Under the pieces are notes generated by a model. It was not told where the DNA came from, made no database searches, and saw nothing but the letters and a program-made list of their open reading frames with translations. From Candidatus Brockarchaeota archaeon (GTDB taxonomy: Archaea; Thermoproteota; EX4484-205; JAAOZO01): a stretch of 64,000 nt of DNA. A program made the position numbers and the translations under genes. This document shows, one piece after another, positions 34,976 through 35,837 of the stretch (the first letter of the stretch is position 1; each line of letters begins with the position of its first letter). The stretch covers positions 39,899 to 103,898 of the forward strand of contig JAFNIV010000001.1 of assembly GCA_017601145.1 (NCBI GenBank). Direction: 5' to 3'.

Positions 34976-35082
34976 TGCGGCAGCCGGGATTTGAACCCGG
35001 GCCAACAGCGTGGCAGGCTGCTTTTAGGTCTAAAGATGTCCTTCCAGTTGCAACAGCAATTACCAGGCTAGACTACTGCCGC
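34976..35082 (-). tRNA. tRNA-Gly(GCC) with two short introns (D-loop and between positions 25/26)
   Basis: 107-nt gene with a complete 73-nt cloverleaf after removing ATTGCTGTTGCAACTGGAA (19 nt) and ATCTTTAGACCTAAA (15 nt). Confidence 0.88.
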
Positions 35083-35725: not shown

Positions 35726-35837
35726 CGGGCCCGGTGGGATTTCCAATCGATGTTTCTAAATTTTTGAACCCACGACAAACGGGTTTCTTTGGCTTGCCTT
35801 AAAAGCCCGCTGCTCTACCATGCTGAGCTACGGGCCC
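35726..35837 (-). tRNA. tRNA-Lys(TTT) with two introns (37/38 and T-loop 59/60)
   Basis: 112-nt gene with a 74-nt cloverleaf after removing AGGCAAGCCAAAGAA (15 nt) and AATTTAGAAACATCGATTGGAAA (23 nt, up to A-register). Confidence 0.9.

Follow-up and report, generated by a model that had tools for sequence, protein, structure and literature searches.

Within the window, i.e. the 64,000-nucleotide stretch of Candidatus Brockarchaeota DNA analysed here, the minus strand of positions 34976-35082 constitutes a tRNA-Gly(GCC) gene with a 107-nt precursor and a 73-nt mature product, the CCA end of which is not encoded. The precursor is interrupted by two introns of 19 nt (intron 1, after A21) and 15 nt (intron 2, after C25), which are separated by four nucleotides (GGAC). 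Probably, this gene yields a functional tRNA whose two BHB introns are cut by a two-subunit EndA, and intron 1 is most likely the first to be removed.

The Rfam tRNA model assigned 44.7 bits (E = 1.7e-8) to the gene in a search of the whole genome (G000:C11:74874-74980), a score above the cut-off. Our own model R1 gave 72.9 bits; since R1 was built with the spliced sequence of the window gene itself, this value is circular as proof of identity and the Rfam score was used instead. ARAGORN did not report the tRNA-Gly(GCC) precursor when applied to the window. The doubly spliced 73-mer was recognised by the same program as tRNA-Gly(gcc), and each of the singly spliced forms was misassigned. On the minus strand, the gene reads GCGGCAGTAGTCTAGCCTGGTA, followed by intron 1 (ATTGCTGTTGCAACTGGAA), GGAC, intron 2 (ATCTTTAGACCTAAA) and AGCAGCCTGCCACGCTGTTGGCCCGGGTTCAAATCCCGGCTGCCGCA. 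Exon 1 (35061-35082) covers tRNA positions 1-21, exon 2 (35038-35041) positions 22-25 and exon 3 (34976-35022) positions 26-73, including the anticodon GCC at 35012-35014. Splicing restores a perfect cloverleaf, in which all 21 stem pairs (7 + 4 + 5 + 5) are formed together with the T-loop TTCAAAT and the anticodon loop CTGCCAC. It is the sole GCC tRNA-Gly detected in the source genome, which is 86.5% complete. The preliminary description of a tRNA-Gly(GCC) gene with two introns was thus borne out by the Rfam score, the spliced cloverleaf and the unique splice registers; the sequence, coordinates, intron lengths, bulges and helices that it gave, as well as the AAGG of the precursor, were all found as described.

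The 73-nt product allows two registers for each intron, exactly one of which provides a central helix of four pairs in either case. Intron 1 (35042-35060) is placed between positions 21 and 22, where the exon strand CTGG (35063-35066) pairs with the intron strand CTGG (35044-35047) via two G-U pairs, with bulges TA^A and AA^G. This helix is present in the precursor. An internal loop sets off the D stem, which acts as the outer helix of the motif; the motif thus has a relaxed form. Intron 2 (35023-35037) is placed between positions 25 and 26, with bulges AC^A and AA^A, and its strand CCTA (35025-35028) pairs with an exon strand TAGG that is complete after removal of intron 1. One half of this strand, T20 A21 (35061-35062), adjoins the other half, G22 G23 of exon 2, only in the absence of intron 1. 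In the unspliced precursor, the competing strand AAGG (35040-35043) faces CCTA instead, with three of the four pairs formed and the outer one replaced by an A-A mismatch. The BHB motif of intron 2 is hence incomplete before, and complete after, removal of intron 1. Shuffled intron letters reached a four-pair helix in 6.3% of the trials for intron 1, in 6.8% for intron 2 and in 0.45% for both. Intron 1 ends in CTGGAA, a near-copy of the exon sequence CTGGTA with a single difference; because this end mimics the displaced exon, the precursor retains three of the four pairs and the same outer CTGG. As a side observation, the two copies of the CTGG direct repeat are exactly one intron length apart, a spacing with the shape expected from duplication at insertion, and the repeat can self-pair via G-U. 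An exact search for intron 1 across the collected loci retrieved only its own match.

The cloverleaf by itself leaves the D-loop of the product ambiguous, as a version with GGAA scores like the one with GGTA, also in ARAGORN. As the two CTGG copies are spaced by one intron length, cutting within the repeat would lead to a GGAA D-loop without a TAGG strand and hence without any order of splicing. We consider such a splice site very unlikely, since among the best products of the solver four-pair helices for both introns were obtained exclusively with GGTA, and T20 is present both in the tRNA-Gly(CCC) of the source genome (L051) and in the intronless tRNA-Gly(GCC) of G016 (L007). The D-arm GGTAGGAC of the GGTA product is identical to that of these two genes and is also found in tRNA-Gly(GCC) genes elsewhere. 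The product containing GGTAGGAC was chosen on the basis of the helices and of this shared D-arm.

A pattern search in 400 genomes of the phylum revealed tRNA-Gly(GCC) genes that carry the 25/26 intron and lack the D-loop intron in five genomes of a single family (G103, G127, G151, G157 and G204), which belongs to another class of the phylum; the genes of these five additionally have an intron at 37/38. CCTA lies opposite an uninterrupted exon TAGG in four of the five and is replaced by ACTA in G103, and the intron interiors vary. In these genes of the family (f12), the flanking exon sequences CTGG and CCAG (CCGG in G204) form an extra outer helix of four pairs. Natural empty sites occur in two relatives from the same family (L164 in G187, L165 in G263), in which GGTAGGAC is directly joined to the anticodon arm. 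In the archaeon HR01 (L015; G133), the helix of the 25/26 intron is CAGG/CCTG, a compensatory change of the pair at position 20 from T-A to C-G. Exactly this pair is disrupted by intron 1 in the window precursor. The homologous 25/26 introns, their empty sites and this compensatory pair place intron 1 within the exon strand with which intron 2 pairs. Introns recur at the site of intron 1 as well: D-loop introns of a Hodarchaeaceae genome (L016; TTGG/CCAA) and of G205 (CTGG/CCAG) position their central helix identically.

A decayed or pseudogenic tRNA, in which the D-arm insertions are no introns at all, might be suspected from the shortness of both insertions and from the failure of ARAGORN to see a gene. 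Given that all stems are intact once spliced, that no second GCC tRNA-Gly was found, that introns homologous to the 25/26 intron by position and helix occur in other genomes, along with natural empty sites, and that the source genome is rich in similar BHB introns, we regard this explanation as extremely unlikely. Closer to the source genome, no tRNA-Gly(GCC) was detected in the genus mate G001 (85% complete), so that a comparison within the genus gives no age for either intron. Elsewhere in the order, the tRNA-Gly(GCC) genes of G002 and the f4 genomes have other introns (in the D-loop or at 37/38) or none, and neither intron of the window gene is present. The D-loop intron of G002 (L026), a member of another family of the same order, differs and is located nearer to position 15.

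We then consider how strictly intron 2 depends on prior removal of intron 1. The preliminary description had predicted an obligatory order, in which excision of intron 1 builds the motif of intron 2. That intron 1 interrupts the pairing strand of intron 2 is supported by the homologous introns at 25/26 and by HR01; the term 'obligatory' turned out to be too strong, as three of the four pairs are kept in the precursor, the energetic cost is small and the endonuclease is apparently of broad specificity. For the local helix, the modelled energy difference between the precursor and the form lacking intron 1 is small, with values of about 1.1 kcal/mol for 37 °C and 0.4 kcal/mol for 70 °C. Free-energy folding was rejected as a source of evidence: neither for the precursor nor for the intermediates were the BHB forms favoured, and as even the mature tRNA was not predicted to fold as a cloverleaf, the energy models lend no support.

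In principle, both introns could be real and be removed in either order, if a broad-specificity EndA accepts the three-pair helix AAGG/CCTA flanked by the matching outer CTGG in the precursor. The small energy difference would be in line with this explanation, and helices with three of the four pairs do exist in nature: in a tRNA-Ala of G001 and the tRNA-Gly of G103, the inner pair is lost to G-A. The outer pair, however, is the one broken in the window precursor, and none of the comparison introns lacks it. Four-pair helices were found in 29 of the 30 anticodon-loop and T-loop introns of the source genome and its genus mate, including all 15 in the source genome; for these introns the cloverleaf determines the product, and the genes surveyed are those contained in the examined loci. 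Together with the compensatory change by which HR01 keeps the outer pair, these observations argue against removal in either order, which we thus consider unlikely.

Two proteins of the source genome carry both tRNA-endonuclease domains, PF01974 and PF02778. The presumed alpha subunit (189 aa) aligns over nearly its full length with EndA of Aeropyrum pernix (3p1z, E = 1.5e-46) and contains the catalytic His in the motif GYDHAPF, compared to GIDHAPF in A. pernix and an Ala at this site in the 3ajv chain. The beta subunit (174 aa) lacks the catalytic His. At the level of genes, this set of two subunits, one of them with the catalytic residue, corresponds to EndA of the (alpha beta)2 type, the assembly itself being predicted. 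A Lys-bearing region of the 189-aa protein is taken to be the crenarchaeal loop, and two-subunit EndA with this loop cuts relaxed motifs (PMC6379350). The endonuclease of the source genome thus looks like the broad-specificity type, judged from its amino acid sequence. This would fit the many non-canonical introns of the genome and at the same time weakens a strict order; the resemblance of the alpha subunit to Aeropyrum EndA, which extends to the loop associated with relaxed specificity, speaks for removal in either order.

Taken as a whole, the evidence points to a preferred order in which intron 1 is probably excised ahead of intron 2, strict dependence being the weaker claim. The site 25/26 is recurrently occupied by introns, whose CCTA pairs with the exon nucleotides 20-23 (TAGG), and intron 1, lying between A21 and G22, splits this strand. 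We infer that the window gene is expressed and its precursor cleaved, and that EndA most likely excises intron 1 first. Ligation would then join T20 A21 to G22 G23 and restore the full four-pair helix, upon which intron 2 could be excised. Early removal of intron 2 via AAGG would be disfavoured, not impossible.

Sixteen intron-bearing tRNA genes of the source genome were surveyed, as seen through loci and not necessarily comprising all such genes. Apart from the window gene, seven have two introns (tRNA-Gly(CCC), tRNA-Lys(TTT), tRNA-Asp(GTC), tRNA-Phe(GAA), tRNA-Ser(GCT) and both tRNA-Gln genes), and in none of these seven does one intron interrupt a central-helix strand of the other. The tRNA-Lys(TTT) gene lies in the window as well (35726-35837, minus strand), with a 15-nt intron at 37/38 and one of about 23 nt in the T-loop; it was missed by ARAGORN and its Rfam score is below the cut-off. 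An intron of 14 nt near position 10 is identical in the two tRNA-Gln genes (L097 and L098; G000:C53 and C7), each of which has a further intron at 37/38. T-loop introns at 59/60 recur in numerous tRNA genes with similar TTCA/TGAA or TTCG/CGAA helices (L051, L058, L062, L063, L068, L073, L101 and in G001), a likeness that would be anticipated from the spread of a single kind of intron between such genes.

Nested introns, one of which has to be excised before the BHB motif of another can form, have been described in archaeal pre-tRNAs (Sugahara 2007; Tocchini-Valentini 2009, both as cited in PMC3978253 and PMC8450103), and the tRNAscan-SE 2.0 paper bases its iterative intron search on them (PMC8450103). 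Since such introns are published, the idea of order dependence is not new and the window gene adds a new example. As far as these citing papers describe them, the nested introns resemble those of the window gene in that the introns are close and removal of the first completes the second motif; in contrast to them, dependence in the window gene comes down to one base pair, owing to the likeness between the 3' end of intron 1 and the exon strand that it displaces. Non-canonical D-arm BHB introns are known from other Thermoproteota; in Caldiarchaeum subterraneum, for example, tRNA-Thr(GGU) has introns at 24/25 and 45/46 (PMC3293823). In both organisms the genome is rich in short BHB introns located away from the anticodon loop, but the introns of this tRNA-Thr(GGU) are far apart, unlike those of the window gene. 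In the red alga Cyanidioschyzon merolae, the introns of a multi-intron pre-tRNA are removed in a fixed order, with the anticodon intron last (PMC9602550). In contrast to the window gene, the sites in C. merolae share no pairing strand, and PMC3978253 contrasts the algal case with nested archaeal introns.

What distinguishes the window gene is the combination of one-pair dependence and natural controls, namely homologues with intron 2 only, homologues with neither intron and the compensatory substitution of the pair on which the order hinges. As a more speculative possibility, which we put forward tentatively and hold to be doubtful, the D-loop intron may have inserted into the strand with which an older 25/26 intron pairs, its 3' end copying the displaced exon, with the order of splicing set by one base pair. 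If true, the gene would represent a minimal natural switch by which splicing becomes ordered or unordered, and would capture how nested tRNA introns originate. It also illustrates why tRNA finders that operate in a single pass miss such genes. The gene offers a compact example of ordered tRNA splicing that lends itself to testing and could show the number of central-helix pairs required by a broad-specificity EndA.
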